Shown one piece after another: positions 23,620 through 30,760 of a DNA stretch of 64,000 nt. The DNA is taken from assembly GCA_013538855.1 (NCBI GenBank), contig JABXJS010000109.1, positions 1 through 64,000 on the forward strand, read 5' to 3'. The first letter of the stretch is position 1. Every line of letters starts with the position of its first letter. The stretch comes from Herpetosiphonaceae bacterium. GTDB taxonomy: Bacteria; Chloroflexota; Chloroflexia; Chloroflexales; Herpetosiphonaceae. A model generated the notes under the pieces. It saw nothing but the letters and a program-made list of their open reading frames with translations, was not told where the DNA came from and searched no databases. Both the position numbers and the translations under genes were made by a program.

Positions 23620-24081
23620 ATGCGGTGCCCCTACTGCCAAGGCGAAAGTGCGGTTATCGACACCCGCGAACTTGATAACGGCGATACTATCCGACGACGG
23701 CGGCGCTGCAAGTACTGTGAGCGCCGCTTTACAACGTATGAGCGTGCGGAGTCGGTTAATGTCACCATCGTCAAAAAAAACGGTGATCGTGAGCCATATG
23801 ATCGCGAAAAAATGATGCGCGGCCTTCGTGTCGCCACCTATAAACGCCCCATTCCTGCTGAGTCCTTGGAAGCTCTGGTCGCCGATGTCGAGGCCGATCT
23901 GATCGCCTACGATGCACCAGAGGTTCCTAGCACGGTCATCGGCGAGGCAGTGATGGCCCGCCTGCGCGATATCGACGAGGTGGCCTACATTCGCTTTGCC
24001 TCAGTGTATCGCTCATTCAGCGACCTAGGTAAGCTCCGCGAGGCCGTGGAGGAGCTTTTCGATTCGGAAACACCACGTTAA
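23620..24081 (+). CDS. nrdR: Transcriptional repressor NrdR
   Basis: Repressor of ribonucleotide reductase genes that senses ATP/dATP through its ATP-cone. The 153 residues hold the N-terminal zinc ribbon (MRCPYC and RCKYC, four cysteines), the DNA-binding [18 protein letters not shown] segment and an ATP-cone domain from about 46 ([24 protein letters not shown]). Length is normal (about 150). No ribonucleotide reductase gene is in the window. It has its own extended -10 promoter and a weak ribosome site; the membrane protein gene begins 19 bp later and may be co-transcribed. Confidence 0.97.
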
Positions 24082-24100
24082 TTGAGGATTATAGAGTTTC

Positions 24101-25012
24101 ATGGCTGCTCAAACGCTTGAAGAAAAGAACGTCTCATCGCAAGACACGTCGGCGCTCGATACCCCTGCCTCTAGCCAAGCCAAAGCACCAGTTCAGTGGC
24201 GCTTTATGCTCATCGCTGGCCTGATCACCGGCTTGCTGTGGGCGCTCGTGCTCACCCTCGGGGGGCAAAGTTTACTGCTCATTGTTGGCGTCGTGCCAGT
24301 GGTCAGCGGCATGGTTGTCGGCCGCCGCATCAAAGGGCGCGCCTTCGCCAACAGCTTGGTGATGGCGCTCAGCGGCGCACTTGCTGCAGCGATTGTGGTC
24401 TGCGCCTATTACTACTTGATCGTAACACCAGAGCAGCTTGTAACACTCCAAAATCCCGATGCCGCACCAAGCAGCCCCGAGAACATTCGGACGGCCCTCG
24501 TGCTCAGCTCGCTCTTGATGATGCTGATCTCATTGGTCCCCTTCACCATCTACGGTGTCTGGATCTCGCACCGCACCTATTTGCGCAATCAAGACTACAA
24601 GCAGGAGGTCGATCGCCGCGGCGGCACCCTCCAGCGCGCTGGCCGCGTCGCCGCCATCGAAGACTTGCAGGGTCTCCCGCTGCCAAAGTTTGCCTCATGG
24701 GTCTCGCAGCTCTTCAAGCAAAATGGCTTTGTGCTTCAGGACTACCGCTTCCAAAAAGACTCCATTGAGCTGCATATGCGCCGTCTCGATCCCGAGGAGC
24801 TTTGGCTCGTACGCTGCACCACCGAGGAAGTGCTCAAGCCAGGCATGGCCCAGTCGCTTGATCAGGACTTACGTGCCAGCGATGAGTTCACCAAAGGTAT
24901 TGTGCTCACCTCAATGAAGGTTCAGGATGGCACCCGCAAGTGGGCCAAGGGCCGCCGCAATATCGAGGTGCTCGATGGCGAGACACTGTGGGAAATGCAC
25001 GAGGCCGCCTAG
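24101..25012 (+). CDS. Membrane protein with C-terminal restriction-endonuclease-like fold
   Basis: 303 residues. After a polar 32-residue N-terminus come four hydrophobic helices (about 33-55, 58-72, 84-106, 130-152). From about 165 a soluble cytoplasmic domain resembles Mrr-type PD-(D/E)XK folds: a helix LPKFASWVSQLFKQNGF, a strand pair around IELHMRRLDPEELWLVRC, a helix SLDQDLRASDEF, the strand GIVLTSM and the ending NIEVLDGETLWEM, which mirrors the typical Mrr ending (i.LidG..L). The catalytic D and E-x-K residues are not clearly in place (LVRC where xxK is expected), so it may be an inactive sensor version. Follows nrdR by 19 bp. Confidence 0.6.
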   Translation: MAAQTLEEKNVSSQDTSALDTPASSQAKAPVQWRFMLIAGLITGLLWALVLTLGGQSLLLIVGVVPVVSGMVVGRRIKGRAFANSLVMALSGALAAAIVVCAYYYLIVTPEQLVTLQNPDAAPSSPENIRTALVLSSLLMMLISLVPFTIYGVWISHRTYLRNQDYKQEVDRRGGTLQRAGRVAAIEDLQGLPLPKFASWVSQLFKQNGFVLQDYRFQKDSIELHMRRLDPEELWLVRCTTEEVLKPGMAQSLDQDLRASDEFTKGIVLTSMKVQDGTRKWAKGRRNIEVLDGETLWEMHEAA

Positions 25013-25088: not shown

Positions 25089-28000
25089 CTAGGCCACACG
25101 CTCCGCTGGCGCTGGCAGCGAGCCAACGCTCGTGTCAAGCCGCTCTAGCGGCACAGTAAAGAGAAATGTGCTGCCAGGCCCTTCGGTCTCACCAACCCAG
25201 ATACGCCCGCCATGCGCCTCGACAGCCAGCCGACAGTAGGTCAGCCCTAGCCCAGTCCCCTTGACACCTGACTTCTGCACCTGCGCAAATTTCTCAAACA
25301 CCCGCTCGCGCAGATGCGCAGGAATGCCGGGGCCAGCATCGCGCACCTTCACCAGCATCCACGCACCATGCGGGTTAGGATGCTCGGCAACTAGCTCATC
25401 AGGATGCGCTACATGCATGCCGATCTCTATCGCGCTGCCCGACGGCGAGTACTTGATCGCATTATCCACTAAGTTCTGAATGACCCGGTCGATCGTCGCC
25501 GGATCGATCCACACCGCTGGTAGGTTGGGCGCAATTTCAATTTTGGCATGCACCCTACGCTCAGCCAGCAACCCCTCGTAGGTCTGGAGCACTGGGCGCA
25601 GTAGATCCTCTATCTGCGTCGGAGCCTGATTCAGTGGCATCTGGCCAGCCTCAAGCTTGTTAATATCGAGCAACATATTGACCATATCCAGCAGCCGACT
25701 GCATGAGCGCATGGCAATGCGCAGCACTTTATCCTGGCCCTCGGTAATCGCCCCCATCATCTGCTTGCTCAACATATCCAGCGATGTCAGCACCGAGCTG
25801 ATCGGGCCGCGCAGATCATGCACAATCATGTAGGTCAGCTCTTGACGCAGATTCTCGATCTCCATTGCCGCTGTGATATCGCGCAGCACTAAAATCAGCG
25901 GGTAGGGCGCAGCCGCCTGCTGCGATAGCACCGGCAGCACCGTCCACTCGTACCAGCGCGGACGCACACCTGCGCTCTTGAACTGGCCGCGGGCCTCGGA
26001 CTCAGCGCCGCTCTGCACGCTATCGAGCGCGCTGAACAGTGAGTCCCATGCATCACTTGTCACCGCCGAGCGCGCGCCCCACTCGGGGATCAGCGTGACC
26101 ACTGGCTGATGCAGCCACGCGTCGGCCTGCAGCATGTCGAACAGCGACTGCGCCGCCGCATTGACTTCGATCACCATAAGATCAGCGCTGAGCAGCATAA
26201 TTGCTTCTTCAGTCGATGAAAGGATCGAGGCCAGCCGGTCACGGCCTTCGCGCACTGCGGCAGCCAGCAGCTTGTTCTCAACCGCCACCGCCGCCTGGTT
26301 GGCAAACAGCGCCACTAGATCTTGATCCTCCAGCGAGGGCAGCAGATCTGGATACCACACATACAGCGTGCCCAGCGTGGTGTGGCTGCCGGCCAGCGGG
26401 AGCATCAGCACAGCCCGCCCGCCAGCACTGGCAATGGATGCTGGAAACGTCGCAGCGTTATCGTGGATTTGAAGCGGCCGCCCACGCCGGGCAACTTGGC
26501 CTGCAAGCTCCAGTAGCTGATCATCTGGCGTATGATCGCGCCCAAGCTTAAGAATCTCTGGCTGCTGGGTCGCATCGCCAATCAGCAGCACGCCAGCGCC
26601 AACCGCACCTGAGGCATCAACGATACCGCCCACGGTGAGCTGCCAGATCGACTGCGGCGTGTAGTCCTGTGTGTTGATCGCCATGCCTAGCGCGCTCAGC
26701 GCCGTGACGCCCTGCAAGCTCTGGCGCAGCTGATCATACAGGCGGCTGTTTTCTAGCGCGACAACCAGCTGGTTCGTAAAGATTTCAAGCGTTTGAATCT
26801 GATCGCCAGTCGGTAGCAGCCCATCGAGCGGATCATCAACGGTCAGCAGTCCCAGCAGCTCACCGCTTGACGAGCGCAGCACCGCCACCAGCATGTCATC
26901 AGGATGCCACGCACCAATGCGCGGCTGCGGCATATCGATCGGTGCCGGTGAGTGGGTGCGCAGCGGGTTATCGCCATTCACCCCTTGATCAAGATAGTAG
27001 ATCGAGGGGCTACGCTGCGTGCCCTGACGCAGCAGACTCTCAATCCGCTCTGGATCAATCATGCCGGCATTGATGGGATCACTATCGAGACCGCTGTAGG
27101 CCACCTGCTGGAGCACAGGTCGCCGACCGGAGACCGCCTCGAGCAGAAAGATTGACGCCCGTTGGAAGCGAATACTGCCACAGATCGCCTGCAGCAGCTG
27201 TGGCAACATCGCTCGCAGGTCACTGGCCGCTTTGATCAGGTTGCCCACCTGCAAGATCTCGTGCAGCTGTTTGTTACGCTCATCTAGCTCTTGCACCCGC
27301 CGTGCCAGCGTGCGATCAGTGCGCGCATACAGATTGGCGTTTTCAATCGCAATCACCGCCTGATCTGCCACCGCCTCCAGCAGCGTGCGGTCACGCACCG
27401 TGAATGGCGTACCGTCGCGGCGATTGATAATCTCAATCACACCCTGCACACCGTAACGCCCAATCAGCGGCACACAGAGCATATCGCGCGTCTGATGGCC
27501 AGTCACTTCGTCTATTTCGGCATAGAAGGCTGGATGCCGATGCGCGCGATTCGCAATCAACGACTGGCCTGTGCGCACCACAAGCCCGGCTAAGCCCACC
27601 GACAGCGGCAAGCGCATCCCCAGCAGCTGCCTGCCATAGGGGCTTAGGCTGTAGCTGAAGATCAGCTCATTGGTGTCCTCATCAAGCAGCAGCAGCGAGC
27701 CTTCTTCTACATCCATGATCTGCTGCACTCGGCCCATAATCAGCGAAGGCACAGCCTCTAGATCTAGCGTCGAGGTGACCGTTCGCCCAAGCTCATTCAG
27801 CAGCTCTAGCTGGCGCGTTTGTTGTATCGCACGCTCTGAGAGCCGCATGCGCTCTAATGATGAGGCCGCCCACTCGGCGAACATCTCGAGCGTGCGCACG
27901 TACTCGGCCGAGTAGGTCACTGTCGGGTCGTCAGAGTAGATCGTCAGCACGCCAAGAATGCGATCACCATGGCACAGCGGCACGCCCAGCCAGGCATAGA

Positions 28001-28742
28001 CTGGGGGGGCATCGGCCATAAACATCGGCGTTATGCCTGCTTCCTTGCAGGCCTCAACATAGTTATCGGTGACCAAGGTTGTGTTGCGCCGAATGACTTC
28101 GCCAGTCAGCCCTTGCGCCACAGTCCACTGCTCGGTGTCTGCGCCACGCCGCCCGTAGACAAAGTTTGCGGCAAAGCGCAGCAGGCCCGAGGCCGAGTCA
28201 TAGAGCGCCAAGAACATATGTTGCGCACCGAGGGTGCGCTGCACTGCCTCGTAAAGCTCATTGAGCAGCGGGTCGGTCGCATGCAGATCAGGATCAAAGG
28301 CATGCAGCTCTTGGAGCTGCGCCGCTGCCCGTAGATCTGAGCCAAACGTTACAAGCCGTGCGGCGGCCTGGAGGGCAATCGGCAGCAGCAGAGGATCGTC
28401 GGCATGCGGATGCGGCAGCGCCAGCCAGCCACGTAGCCAGCCATGCAGCAGCGGCAGCAGTGTCCACTCCTTGCCGGTCGGATCCGTGTGTGTAACGCTG
28501 CTGCCGGAGGCGAGCTGCTCTTGCAGCGCTTGATCGGGCGTAAAGGCGGAGTCGAGCGTGACGTTGATTGTAGCGGTATCATTCCAGATCAAGTGGTACT
28601 CATCGTTACCACGAATCTCGAAACACACCTGCTTCAGCGTCGTATGAACGGCAGCAATGCTTGTTGCAGTCGCTAGTGCTGGTAGCCAACCCATAATGCG
28701 GATTGACACGTTTTTCGCTCTGGAAGGCCGTATTGTAGTCAT
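25089..28742 (-). CDS. Multi-GAF sensor histidine kinase
   Basis: A 1217-residue cytoplasmic sensor. Several GAF domains in a row are visible: about 170-300 (GVPLCHGDRILGVLTIYS), 320-480 (CVPLIGRYGVQGVIEIINR), 500-660 (MLVAVLRSSSGELLGLLTVDD) and 670-830 (LPLAGSHTTLGTLYVWY), each ending in a helix like ALENSRLYDQL. A PAS domain (about 840-965, ILSSTEEAIMLLSADLMVIEVN) precedes the HisKA phosphoacceptor histidine in YMIVHDLRGPISS and a HATPase with N-box NLVDNAIKYSPSG, DAGPGI and GTGLGLTYCRLAVEAHGG. No transmembrane segments are clear, so it senses an internal or diffusible ligand. No response regulator is adjacent (orphan kinase). Start at 28742 after caggga. Confidence 0.92.
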   Translation of the reverse strand: MTTIRPSRAKNVSIRIMGWLPALATATSIAAVHTTLKQVCFEIRGNDEYHLIWNDTATINVTLDSAFTPDQALQEQLASGSSVTHTDPTGKEWTLLPLLHGWLRGWLALPHPHADDPLLLPIALQAAARLVTFGSDLRAAAQLQELHAFDPDLHATDPLLNELYEAVQRTLGAQHMFLALYDSASGLLRFAANFVYGRRGADTEQWTVAQGLTGEVIRRNTTLVTDNYVEACKEAGITPMFMADAPPVYAWLGVPLCHGDRILGVLTIYSDDPTVTYSAEYVRTLEMFAEWAASSLERMRLSERAIQQTRQLELLNELGRTVTSTLDLEAVPSLIMGRVQQIMDVEEGSLLLLDEDTNELIFSYSLSPYGRQLLGMRLPLSVGLAGLVVRTGQSLIANRAHRHPAFYAEIDEVTGHQTRDMLCVPLIGRYGVQGVIEIINRRDGTPFTVRDRTLLEAVADQAVIAIENANLYARTDRTLARRVQELDERNKQLHEILQVGNLIKAASDLRAMLPQLLQAICGSIRFQRASIFLLEAVSGRRPVLQQVAYSGLDSDPINAGMIDPERIESLLRQGTQRSPSIYYLDQGVNGDNPLRTHSPAPIDMPQPRIGAWHPDDMLVAVLRSSSGELLGLLTVDDPLDGLLPTGDQIQTLEIFTNQLVVALENSRLYDQLRQSLQGVTALSALGMAINTQDYTPQSIWQLTVGGIVDASGAVGAGVLLIGDATQQPEILKLGRDHTPDDQLLELAGQVARRGRPLQIHDNAATFPASIASAGGRAVLMLPLAGSHTTLGTLYVWYPDLLPSLEDQDLVALFANQAAVAVENKLLAAAVREGRDRLASILSSTEEAIMLLSADLMVIEVNAAAQSLFDMLQADAWLHQPVVTLIPEWGARSAVTSDAWDSLFSALDSVQSGAESEARGQFKSAGVRPRWYEWTVLPVLSQQAAAPYPLILVLRDITAAMEIENLRQELTYMIVHDLRGPISSVLTSLDMLSKQMMGAITEGQDKVLRIAMRSCSRLLDMVNMLLDINKLEAGQMPLNQAPTQIEDLLRPVLQTYEGLLAERRVHAKIEIAPNLPAVWIDPATIDRVIQNLVDNAIKYSPSGSAIEIGMHVAHPDELVAEHPNPHGAWMLVKVRDAGPGIPAHLRERVFEKFAQVQKSGVKGTGLGLTYCRLAVEAHGGRIWVGETEGPGSTFLFTVPLERLDTSVGSLPAPAERVA

Positions 28743-28858: not shown

Positions 28859-29296
28859 CTACTTTTTAAGCACCAAATCCTCACGGCCTTGCTCGCGCAG
28901 GATGCGTGGATACATATCGTACATCGGCGTGATGGCTGGCAACAGCTTGATGATCTTTGGGATTGGCCCCTTGGCAACAATCTGTCGGCGCGTCAGTGCT
29001 GCCATCAAATTAACCGAGCCATGCCAGAACTGATGCGCAACATCGGCCTTCATCGACATCGTGACATCAGGCTTTACATCAGTCAGCTCGCCCCATACAA
29101 CATCGAAGTAGGCATCTGGCTGCGTCGGCGGACGATTGGCTAGAATGGTCACAATTCCGTCTGGCTCAGTATAGCGAAACTGAATTGCCAATCCTGAGGC
29201 CTTGATCTTTGGGGCTACTTCATCATCACCTTTAGCCTCATCGTAGAGGGCACCCATGTATTGCTGCAGTTCTGCCGAGTCTTTGAAAGAAGGCAT
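28859..29296 (-). CDS. SCP2 sterol-transfer-domain protein
   Basis: A 145-residue single SCP2 domain, a hydrophobic-tunnel fold binding lipids or acyl groups. Seen are an amphipathic N-terminus (FKDSAELQQYMGALYDEA), the strand DGIVTILANRPPTQPDAYFDVVWG, DVTMSMKADVAHQFWHGSVNLMAALTRRQIVAKGPIPKIIKLLP, which is the classical central part with K/G-rich turn. The start 29296 follows AAGGAG; eight codons upstream in frame are not needed. It is divergent from the phasin-family operon with overlapping control sites, suggesting a shared role in polymer or lipid granules. Confidence 0.9.
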   Translation of the reverse strand: MPSFKDSAELQQYMGALYDEAKGDDEVAPKIKASGLAIQFRYTEPDGIVTILANRPPTQPDAYFDVVWGELTDVKPDVTMSMKADVAHQFWHGSVNLMAALTRRQIVAKGPIPKIIKLLPAITPMYDMYPRILREQGREDLVLKK

Positions 29297-29377: not shown

Positions 29378-29406
29378 ATTATAGGAGATATAACCCGCTG
29401 CGTCAA
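29378..29406 (-). promoter_or_regulatory. Promoter of the SCP2 gene
   Basis: Minus-strand TTGACG (29401-29406), exactly 17 bp, then TATAAT (29378-29383). The -35 overlaps a TGCGTCA site (29399-29405). Confidence 0.8.
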
Positions 29407-29460
29407 GAGTTGACATGTATGACGCAACGTGTTATATTGTTGGTAACGCAATGCGTCATA
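29399..29460. promoter_or_regulatory. Cluster of TGCGTCA operator-like sites
   Basis: TGCGTCA at 29399-29405, its inverse TGACGCA at 29420-29426 and TGCGTCA again at 29452-29458. The last two extend to a 9-bp inverted repeat TATGACGCA / TGCGTCATA (29418-29426 and 29452-29460). Together they cover both -35 regions and the start of the phasin transcript, as expected for a shared repressor. The regulator is not identified. Confidence 0.6.
29410..29438 (+). promoter_or_regulatory. Promoter of the phasin operon
   Basis: TTGACA (29410-29415), 17 bp, TATATT (29433-29438). It stands back to back with the SCP2 promoter, the two -35 boxes being 3 bp apart, and carries a TGACGCA site in its spacer. Confidence 0.85.
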
Positions 29461-29525: not shown

Positions 29526-30281
29526 ATGACGATCGTTCGCCAGATTGCTGATACCACGGAAGAACAAATCAAGAATGTGCAAGGTCTCGTCCGTCGCTCG
29601 TGGCTTGCTGCTCTGGGCGTCGCCGGGATGGCTATCGACAGCAGCGAGAACACGTTCAAAAAGTGTGTCAACCGCGGCGAAGATGTTGCAAAGACCACCA
29701 AAGATGAGCTGAAGAAGCTCAACCAGCGCCTACGCCGCGAGCAAGCTCAGCTCAACGAAGATATCCAAGATGCCGAGCAGACGGCGGAGCGCAAAGTCAC
29801 CGATGTGTTGGCCTCGTTCAATGTGCCGTCACGCCGCGATCTGCGCGTGCTCGATGCACGTATCAACCAGCTGAATGTTCAGCTGCGCGAGCTGAATAGC
29901 GAGCTACACCCCAGCGGCAAGCCGCTACAGAACTACGACGAGTTGAACGTCGAGGAGATCAACGCGGTGCTGCCCACCCTAAAGCTCGATGACCTCTACC
30001 ACGTAGAGCACTACGAGATCAGCCATCAGGGCCGCGTAACCATCCTGCGCGAGGTCGAGCGCCAAATTGCGCAGCGCCTCACCGAGAATGGCGAGATCAC
30101 CACGCCCTTCGCTGGCTACGATGCGCTACGCGCTGAAGAGGTTGTCGCCCAGCTCGATGGCATGAGCCTGGCCGAGCTGCGCCACGTCAAACTCTATGAG
30201 TCAACTCACGCCAAGCGGGTCACTGTACAGCGCGAAGTTGAGCGGCGAATCGAGGCAACCTGGAACACCACCGTTGCCTAG
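29526..30281 (+). CDS. Phasin-family protein with duplicated C-terminal module
   Basis: 251 residues, start at 29526 after gaggagg. Residues 1-125 are phasin-like: an amphipathic alpha helix (VRRSWLAALGVAGMAIDSSENTFKKC) then a long charged coiled coil ending VLASFNVPSRRDLRVLDARI, typical of polyhydroxyalkanoate granule-associated proteins. Two copies of a helical module follow (137-185 and 198-246), both with YD.L..EE...L, L.HV..YE..H..RVT and REVER.I. Similar YEEL...EV...L...YE..H..R modules occur in actinobacterial proteins as far as I recall. No PHA synthase is in the window, so granule coating is an inference. Forms an operon with the next gene. Confidence 0.8.
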   Translation: MTIVRQIADTTEEQIKNVQGLVRRSWLAALGVAGMAIDSSENTFKKCVNRGEDVAKTTKDELKKLNQRLRREQAQLNEDIQDAEQTAERKVTDVLASFNVPSRRDLRVLDARINQLNVQLRELNSELHPSGKPLQNYDELNVEEINAVLPTLKLDDLYHVEHYEISHQGRVTILREVERQIAQRLTENGEITTPFAGYDALRAEEVVAQLDGMSLAELRHVKLYESTHAKRVTVQREVERRIEATWNTTVA

Positions 30282-30364: not shown

Positions 30365-30760
30365 ATGACTGACGAGATCGAAGTGAAAATCAATGAGATC
30401 AAGGACGATGTAGCCGAGCGTGCCACCCCACTCCTCGATGGTGTACGCCGCCTCATGCTGGCCGCTGTTGGTGCTGTCGCCATGACTCGCGATGAGATGG
30501 AGCAGTTCGTCTCCCGCTTGGTCGAGCGCGGCGAGATCGCCGAGCGTGACGCCAAAAAGCTGGTCAACGACGTGATGGCACGTCGCAAGCGCGAAGTTGA
30601 AAGCGCCGCCGATGAGGCCGAGGCCCGCGTGGAGACCCGCCTAGAGCAGGTGCTCAGCCGCATGAACATCCCCACCAAGCGCGATATCGATGAGCTTAGC
30701 GACAAGATCGCGCTCCTGTCGGCGCGCGTCGAAGAGCTGAAGAAAAATCGCGCTCAGTAA
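30365..30760 (+). CDS. Phasin-family protein
   Basis: 131 residues with the same plan as the N-terminal half of the preceding protein: an amphipathic helix (LLDGVRRLMLAAVGAVAMTRDEMEQFVSRL), a charged coiled coil with AERDAKKLVNDVMARRKRE and the hinge MNIPTKRDIDELSDKIALLSARVEEL, matching PHA granule-associated (PhaF/PhaI-like) proteins. Of two adjacent ATG codons the second (30365) is preferred because GGAGG lies six bases upstream. Followed by a strong terminator. Confidence 0.85.
   Translation: MTDEIEVKINEIKDDVAERATPLLDGVRRLMLAAVGAVAMTRDEMEQFVSRLVERGEIAERDAKKLVNDVMARRKREVESAADEAEARVETRLEQVLSRMNIPTKRDIDELSDKIALLSARVEELKKNRAQ

Follow-up and report, generated by a model that had tools for sequence, protein, structure and literature searches.

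In the 64-kb window from Herpetosiphonaceae bacterium (the whole stretch of 64,000 nucleotides that was analyzed, contig JABXJS010000109.1), the intergenic region between a gene for an SCP2-like protein and a pair of phasin genes contains a cluster of predicted PhaR-type operators that most likely coordinates these genes within a regulon resembling one for lipid catabolism. That the three predicted operators, O1, O2 and O3, are boxes of a PhaR-type regulator, which would be encoded elsewhere in the genome and act by the mechanism outlined below, is a reading in which we have considerable confidence. The comparisons involve a sample of 60 genomes, the window's own (G000) and 59 relatives; f, g and L label families, genera and loci, respectively, and f1 is Herpetosiphonaceae.

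The SCP2-like gene (28859..29293, minus strand) encodes a protein of 144 aa with a sub-threshold match to PF02036. On the other side of the region, phasin gene 1 (29526..30281, plus strand, 251 aa) and phasin gene 2 (30365..30760, plus strand, 131 aa) match PF05597 with 45.1 and 46.4 bits, respectively (cut-off 28.8), and TIGR01837 with 50.0 and 73.9 bits, under its cut-off of 94.7. These two genes have the same direction and probably form one operon; a second phasin match lies beside the first in all 8 other genomes of f1. Querying a set of genome contigs with the phasin yielded no relative. A promoter scan identifies two divergent promoters, each with 11 of 12 consensus matches and a 17-bp spacer: that of the SCP2-like gene, with the -35 box TTGACG at 29401..29406 and the -10 box TATAAT at 29378..29383 on the minus strand, and that of the phasin genes, with the -35 box TTGACA at 29410..29415 and the -10 box TATATT at 29433..29438 on the plus strand. 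The two -35 boxes are 3 bp apart (29407–29409), and the 1.3 kb scanned contains 3 promoter-like sites, against a shuffle mean of 0.9. The scan thus confirms the back-to-back sigma70-type promoters described in the first-pass annotation, and direct reading of the sequence bears out the three copies of TGCGTCA that it placed over both promoters, at 29399 (plus), 29420 (minus) and 29452 (plus). The two 9-mers that it reported as an extension of the outer pair, TATGACGCA (29418–29426) and TGCGTCATA (29452–29460), are both present but belong to copies two and three, not to the outer pair.

By itself, TGCGTCA is not enriched in the 64-kb window (12 occurrences vs 14.0 expected). The copies in the intergenic region are the halves of three 15-bp dyads that lie within 68 bp and share the consensus TRACGCANTGCGTYA. 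O3, TAACCCGCTGCGTCA (reverse complement TGACGCAGCGGGTTA; 29391..29405), has 2 mismatches and overlaps the -35 box and spacer of the SCP2 promoter; O1, TGACGCAACGTGTTA (29420..29434), occupies the spacer of the phasin promoter, with its right arm reaching into the -10 box; and O2, TAACGCAATGCGTCA (29444..29458), an exact copy of the consensus, is located at the expected transcription start of the phasin genes. No further position of the window comes within 2 mismatches of TRACGCANTGCGTYA, for a total of 3 against 0.88 expected, and 4 of 100 shuffles reach 3 such sites anywhere in 64 kb. A dyad pattern with W at the centre omitted O3, which was recovered with N at this position; O3 is less conserved than O1 and O2, and five of its bases come from the -35 box TTGACG. 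A symmetric matrix was derived from 31 phasin-promoter sites, all of them in f3 and f4 and so outside the family of the window; over the 64 kb it places O2, O1 and O3 first to third (23.0, 18.7 and 15.4 bits; the fourth position scores 8.9). A caveat is that the window had prompted the search pattern by which the training sites were chosen. A position as good as O1 occurs in 2 of 30 shuffled windows (the largest score being 19.9), so that neither O1 nor O3 would be remarkable on its own; the three sites together within 68 bp are.

The first-pass annotation made its proposal depend on conservation of the motif upstream of orthologous phasin genes, and such conservation is found. A phasin match is present in 40 of the 60 genomes, including 9 of 9 Herpetosiphonaceae, and every one of the 29 related loci read, out of 39 relatives with a phasin match, has one site or more when up to 2 mismatches to TRACRCANTGYGTYA are allowed in the 450 bp before the phasin gene. 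In f1, the order TTGACA, O1, -10 box, O2 is the same as in the window in 7 of the 8 loci (L006–L012), that of G001 (L013) being different, and the position of O1 is shared by the phasin promoters of G002–G008. In f4, O1 abuts the -10 box and is followed by O2 in 9 of the 12 loci, the remaining ones having a shifted pair (L030), one site (L026) or three tandem copies (L027); in f3, a single site is found in 9 of 9 loci. The three operators of L027 (G055:C131, positions 888–1044) are exact and lie 69–73 bp apart upstream of the phasin gene; at least two of them share flanking promoter sequence, which points to a tandemly multiplied promoter-operator unit.

The comparison points to the SCP2-like gene as a target in its own right. 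A match to this protein is found in 42 of the 60 genomes, the window's own included, and 29 loci were read from the 41 relatives. When up to 2 mismatches are allowed in the 250 bp before the gene, a site is present in 16 of these loci (in 17 of 30 once the window is counted) and in 1 of 239 controls. For 14 of the 16, the SCP2-like gene is on another contig or more than 100 kb away from the phasin match, and therefore the shared control is no by-product of one intergenic region. The divergent SCP2-like/phasin arrangement is also found, by coordinates, in G001 and G003 of f1 and in G046 of f3; O3 is not kept in G003. Two of the SCP2-like promoters with a site, those of L191 and L175, have an additional dyad, with 3 mismatches, on the -35 box. 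No site is found in any of the 6 loci of g3 (Herpetosiphon-type) or the 6 of g9, or in the one g13 locus read. The lipid-transfer function proposed for this gene in the first-pass annotation rests on a PF02036 match of 16.5 bits, below the cut-off of 21.3, although a PF02036 match at E<=1 is obtained for 7 of 8 members of the family. A sequence search of PDB at E<=1 identifies no relative of the family, and the single-sequence structure model (pLDDT 50.3) is too poor for a fold search.

Several observations point to PhaR as the regulator. Its DNA-binding domain, PF07879, is present in Proteobacteria, and the control genome, Caulobacter, gives a PF07879 match as well. The domain is detected in 41 of the 60 genomes, including 8 of 9 Herpetosiphonaceae, and once in the window's genome (G000:C167; 83.6 bits, cut-off 25). 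In the 60 genomes, PhaR and phasin are found together in 39, PhaR only in 2, phasin only in 1 (G003) and neither in 18. Across 158 genomes of the class, 61 contain the exact motif and 59 contain PF07879; the two occur together in 55, PhaR only in 4 (G048, G068, G071 and G080), the motif only in 6 (G009, G069, G076, G079, G100 and G110, four of which are 71–83% complete) and neither in 93 (Fisher 1e-30, a statistic that ignores phylogeny), whereas the reversed control pattern occurs in 4 of the 158. Counted by genus, the tally is 25 with both, 2 with PhaR only, 5 with the motif only and 46 with neither. Among genera beyond the order, the motif and PhaR are present in g36 and g37 and absent from g35 (3 genomes); in most f4 genomes, the phasin and phaR genes are close together. 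Two individual genomes are of separate note: G003 has a phasin and near-exact operators, with no PhaR found in an assembly that is 76% complete, and G014 (genus g7, 100% complete) lacks PhaR, phasin and the exact operator and retains the SCP2-like gene, while its genus mates have the three.

The core of the operator agrees with PhaR motifs described, in the portions of the papers available, for three Proteobacteria: WNWD2NYGCRNYGCRNH2WNW with the core YGCRNYGCR in S. meliloti (PMC12542648), YTKNTGCRNYGCANMAR in R. eutropha (PMC12849132) and TGCRNYGCASMA in B. diazoefficiens (PMC6201568), the latter two containing the core TGCRNYGCA. The O2 core, CGCAATGCG, fits YGCRNYGCR and is close to TGCRNYGCA; the cores of O1, CGCAACGTG, and O3, CCCGCTGCG, are each one base off YGCRNYGCR. 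Sites are also found at phaR genes themselves: with a threshold of at most 2 mismatches within 150 bp, 20 of 36 phaR promoters (36 loci read from the 41 genomes, the window's own included) have a site, compared with 3 of 408 control windows taken from the phaR reading frame and its 3' side only. An initial control set, in which 29 of 599 windows had a site at the same threshold, contained neighbouring phasin operators and was replaced. The best phaR-promoter site has 2 mismatches in the window's genome and 4 in six Herpetosiphon-type genomes; because 16 of the 36 promoters have no site at this threshold, autoregulation of phaR is not general. The PhaR-like candidate put forward in the first-pass annotation thus fits by motif core, co-occurrence and sites at phaR genes; nothing in the analysis, which covered PhaR as the one regulator searched for, indicates its TetR-like candidate. 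Of its notion of one coordinating repressor, the coordination has good support from the sites at 29 of 29 phasin and 16 of 29 SCP2-like loci, and repression is suggested by the positions of the sites. A similar layout, with sites near the -35 and -10 boxes, causes repression of phaP1 in R. eutropha according to the authors of PMC12849132, in the part of that paper available, and the layout here suggests the same; the same authors find activation for phaP3, so the direction of regulation cannot be presumed.

The regulon looks wider than the SCP2-like and phasin genes. Exact-motif places away from a phasin match number 40 in the relatives, of which 37 were examined (G049:C130:9737 and G023:C42:1677 were left out, and G017:C71:1102 was seen solely as an SCP2-like locus). 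Twelve of the 37 precede acyl-CoA dehydrogenase genes in f1 and f4 (two of the proteins Pfam-checked), 4 precede SCP2-like genes and 3 patatin-like genes; 9 are associated with GNAT acetyltransferase genes (two Pfam-checked), the region being shared with a miaA-like or homoserine-dehydrogenase-like gene, and 1 with a homoserine-dehydrogenase-like gene alone; 1 precedes a small gene that is phasin-like by eye, with no Pfam phasin match; and the remaining 7 fall into none of these classes, four overlying open frames. The GNAT gene is a candidate for a further conserved target. In the respective set of loci (L129–L132, L134, L160–L162, L164), its partner is miaA-like in five f4 genomes (g12) and homoserine-dehydrogenase-like in four f3 genomes of g9.

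In the window's own genome, 13 sites have at most 1 mismatch to TRACRCANTGYGTYA, compared with 4 for the control pattern, and therefore about a third of them may be chance matches. Besides O1 and O2, these sites precede genes for patatin (PF01734), RelA/SpoT, a secreted protein, a biotin-carrier-like protein, a lipase, an aldehyde-dehydrogenase-like protein, EtfB and malate synthase A; by eye, the sites in C94 and C261 fall within coding sequence, and the one in C186 has no gene assigned to it. The names RelA/SpoT, lipase, EtfB and malate synthase are those of the best NCBIfam models, all below their cut-offs and three on 330-residue fragments, and the biotin-carrier and aldehyde-dehydrogenase names were assigned by eye. 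For EtfB, 11 of 32 loci, taken from titled sequence records, have a site when one mismatch is tolerated; none of the 309 control windows does, and a single one has a site at 2 mismatches. The carriers are four named Herpetosiphon species, a Herpetosiphonaceae MAG, Chloroflexus islandicus, two uncultured Chloroflexus, Chloroflexales ZM16-3 and two Chloroflexota MAGs; the Roseiflexaceae and Chloroploca loci are among the 21 of 32 with no site at this threshold. A zero-mismatch site of the looser pattern lies between the RelA/SpoT and cytochrome-P450-like genes (position 3908 of L167, G000:C253:20907–20921), a possible link to the stringent response.

The PhaR protein of the window's genome consists of 165 aa, with PF07879 at residues 3–60. 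The C-terminal domain typical of proteobacterial PhaR is PF05233 (PHB_acc), for which a Pfam scan of the G000 protein gives no match at E<=1. All 4 proteins scanned reach 71–77 bits with TIGR01848 (PhaR), under the cut-off of 109.45, and are for this reason called PhaR-type here and not equivalogs of TIGR01848; a sequence search of PDB at E<=1 identifies no relative. An hhalign comparison of the part after residue 62 (32 of 36 PhaR sequences, two short pieces and duplicates having been dropped) with short phasins (26 sequences) yields a match at 97.1% with an E-value of 1.3e-10, compared with at most 0.06% for five column shuffles and a reversal. In separate alignments, the middle part and the terminal coil match their phasin counterparts at 92% and 94%, respectively, compared with 0.2% for an unrelated family and a mismatched pairing; the phasins were picked by their terminal-coil pattern, so that the coil match is biased and the middle match is not. 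The phasin profile TIGR01837 also hits the C-terminal part of PhaR below its cut-off, with E-values from 3e-4 to 0.06. From this similarity, we infer that the C-terminus of PhaR could bind hydrophobic surfaces or phasin itself.

These proteins occur in a family in which PHA synthase is not detected: none of the PhaC_N (PF07167), TIGR01836 and WS/DGAT models matches in the 9 Herpetosiphonaceae genomes, 7 of which are at least 90% complete, although a very divergent synthase would escape such a search. The granule-coating function that the first-pass annotation assigned to the phasins is hence uncertain. In the entire sample, PhaC_N matches are found in 33 of the 60 genomes, most of those in other families being partial; PhaR and PhaC_N are both present in 28, PhaR only in 13, PhaC_N only in 5 and neither in 14, and by this tally PhaR follows phasin and the operator more closely than it follows PHA synthase.

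The mechanism that we propose starts with PhaR, probably dimeric, binding O1 in the phasin spacer and O2 at the phasin start site, and more weakly O3 at the SCP2 -35 box; bound PhaR would bar RNA polymerase from both promoters. PhaR might be titrated through its phasin-like C-terminal half once lipid or some other hydrophobic surface accumulates, this signal being the speculative part of the scheme. Release of PhaR would then cause joint derepression of the phasin pair, the SCP2-like gene, EtfB and patatin, and perhaps likewise of malate synthase and a lipase. In a bolder reading, which we consider less likely than not, the PhaR N-terminal domain joined to a phasin-like C-terminus would make a DNA-binding phasin that senses hydrophobic lipid surfaces and governs beta-oxidation and related genes without PHA in Herpetosiphonaceae and their relatives. 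In that case, the control of PHA would be only one version of a general lipid-storage or lipid-flux switch formed by PhaR and phasins.

Alternative interpretations differ in which part of this scheme they replace. Chance clustering of a common 7-mer agrees with the lack of enrichment of TGCGTCA alone and is refuted by the conservation and matrix results, which leaves it with a negligible probability. More serious is the notion that only the phasin promoter is regulated, via O1 and O2, with O3 being a -35 box that resembles a half-site and the SCP2-like gene coupled by mere closeness: O3 has two mismatches, is not kept in G003 and owes five bases to TTGACG. Against this, the matrix trained on other families places O3 third in the 64-kb window, SCP2-like genes have an operator in 16 of 29 related loci, in 14 of them away from the phasin match, and L191 and L175 show a further dyad on the SCP2-like -35 box, so that we consider this interpretation rather unlikely. 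Phasins and PhaR usually accompany PHA, and this, along with the PhaC_N matches, mostly partial, in over half of the sample, favors a classic PHA-granule response under PhaR with a herpetosiphonacean synthase too divergent to detect; the lack of PhaC_N and TIGR01836 matches in all 9 genomes of the family, 7 of them at least 90% complete, and the lipid-catabolic character of the targets in this family (EtfB, acyl-CoA dehydrogenase, patatin) argue against such a response, which appears unlikely.

The operators might also be read by a different regulator, such as a TetR-family regulator of fatty acid metabolism, with PhaR merely co-occurring. Acyl-CoA dehydrogenase, EtfB and malate synthase are indeed typical targets of FadR/PsrA-type proteins (in part general background, in part after excerpts of PMC5343134). 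The O2 core, however, agrees with the PhaR motifs in the available portions of the papers cited above; the motif and the PhaR gene are jointly present or absent in 148 of 158 genomes, are both absent from G014 of g7 and, outside the order, both occur in g36 and g37 and not in g35; and there are sites at phaR promoters and closeness of phasin and phaR genes in most f4 genomes. From these comparisons, which covered PhaR among the regulators, we regard a different regulator as improbable and retain the PhaR-type reading.

In the PhaF-type phasins of Pseudomonas, one protein carries a phasin module and also binds DNA, by a histone-like tail; the PhaR described here likewise would unite the two, by joining the PhaR N-terminal domain to a phasin-like C-terminus. 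The closest known system is the PhaR/AniA regulon of Proteobacteria (Cupriavidus necator, Paracoccus, Rhodobacter, Sinorhizobium, Bradyrhizobium), with PhaR characterized as a PHB sensor and regulator in the available parts of the papers on it. Common to both are the PF07879 DNA-binding domain, the palindromic core YGCRNYGCR, targets beyond PHB and, in the available parts of PMC12542648 and PMC12849132, several boxes in a single phasin promoter, near its -35 and -10 boxes and the start site. In contrast, the sites in Chloroflexota have fixed outer arms, TRA...TYA, and extend to genes for EtfB, acyl-CoA dehydrogenase, patatin and SCP2-like proteins; the G000 PhaR has a phasin-like C-terminal half and no PF05233 match at E<=1; and the system exists in a family with no detected PHA synthase. 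The FadR/PsrA/FadP regulons of fatty acid degradation share acyl-CoA dehydrogenase, ETF and a glyoxylate-cycle gene with the predicted regulon; their regulators are GntR or TetR proteins, whereas the motif here has the PhaR core (partly after excerpts of PMC5343134, partly general background). A literature search of limited reach found no paper on PhaR in Chloroflexota. As predicted from sequence, the novel parts of the system are the phylum, the fixed arms, the content of the regulon, the phasin-like C-terminus and its existence with no detected PHA synthase. The box, the PhaR gene and phasins occur in Chloroflexota without a detectable PHA synthase and are tied to EtfB and acyl-CoA dehydrogenase, which makes this a direct test case for whether it is PHA itself that PhaR senses or any hydrophobic lipid surface, with a concrete operator and regulon named for cultured Herpetosiphon and Chloroflexus.

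Elsewhere in the window, a gene for a 1217-aa histidine kinase with several GAF domains (25089–28742) is located directly downstream of the SCP2-like gene on the same strand. The region 23620–25012 contains an NrdR gene followed by a gene with an Mrr_cat-like nuclease domain and, by sequence, membrane segments.
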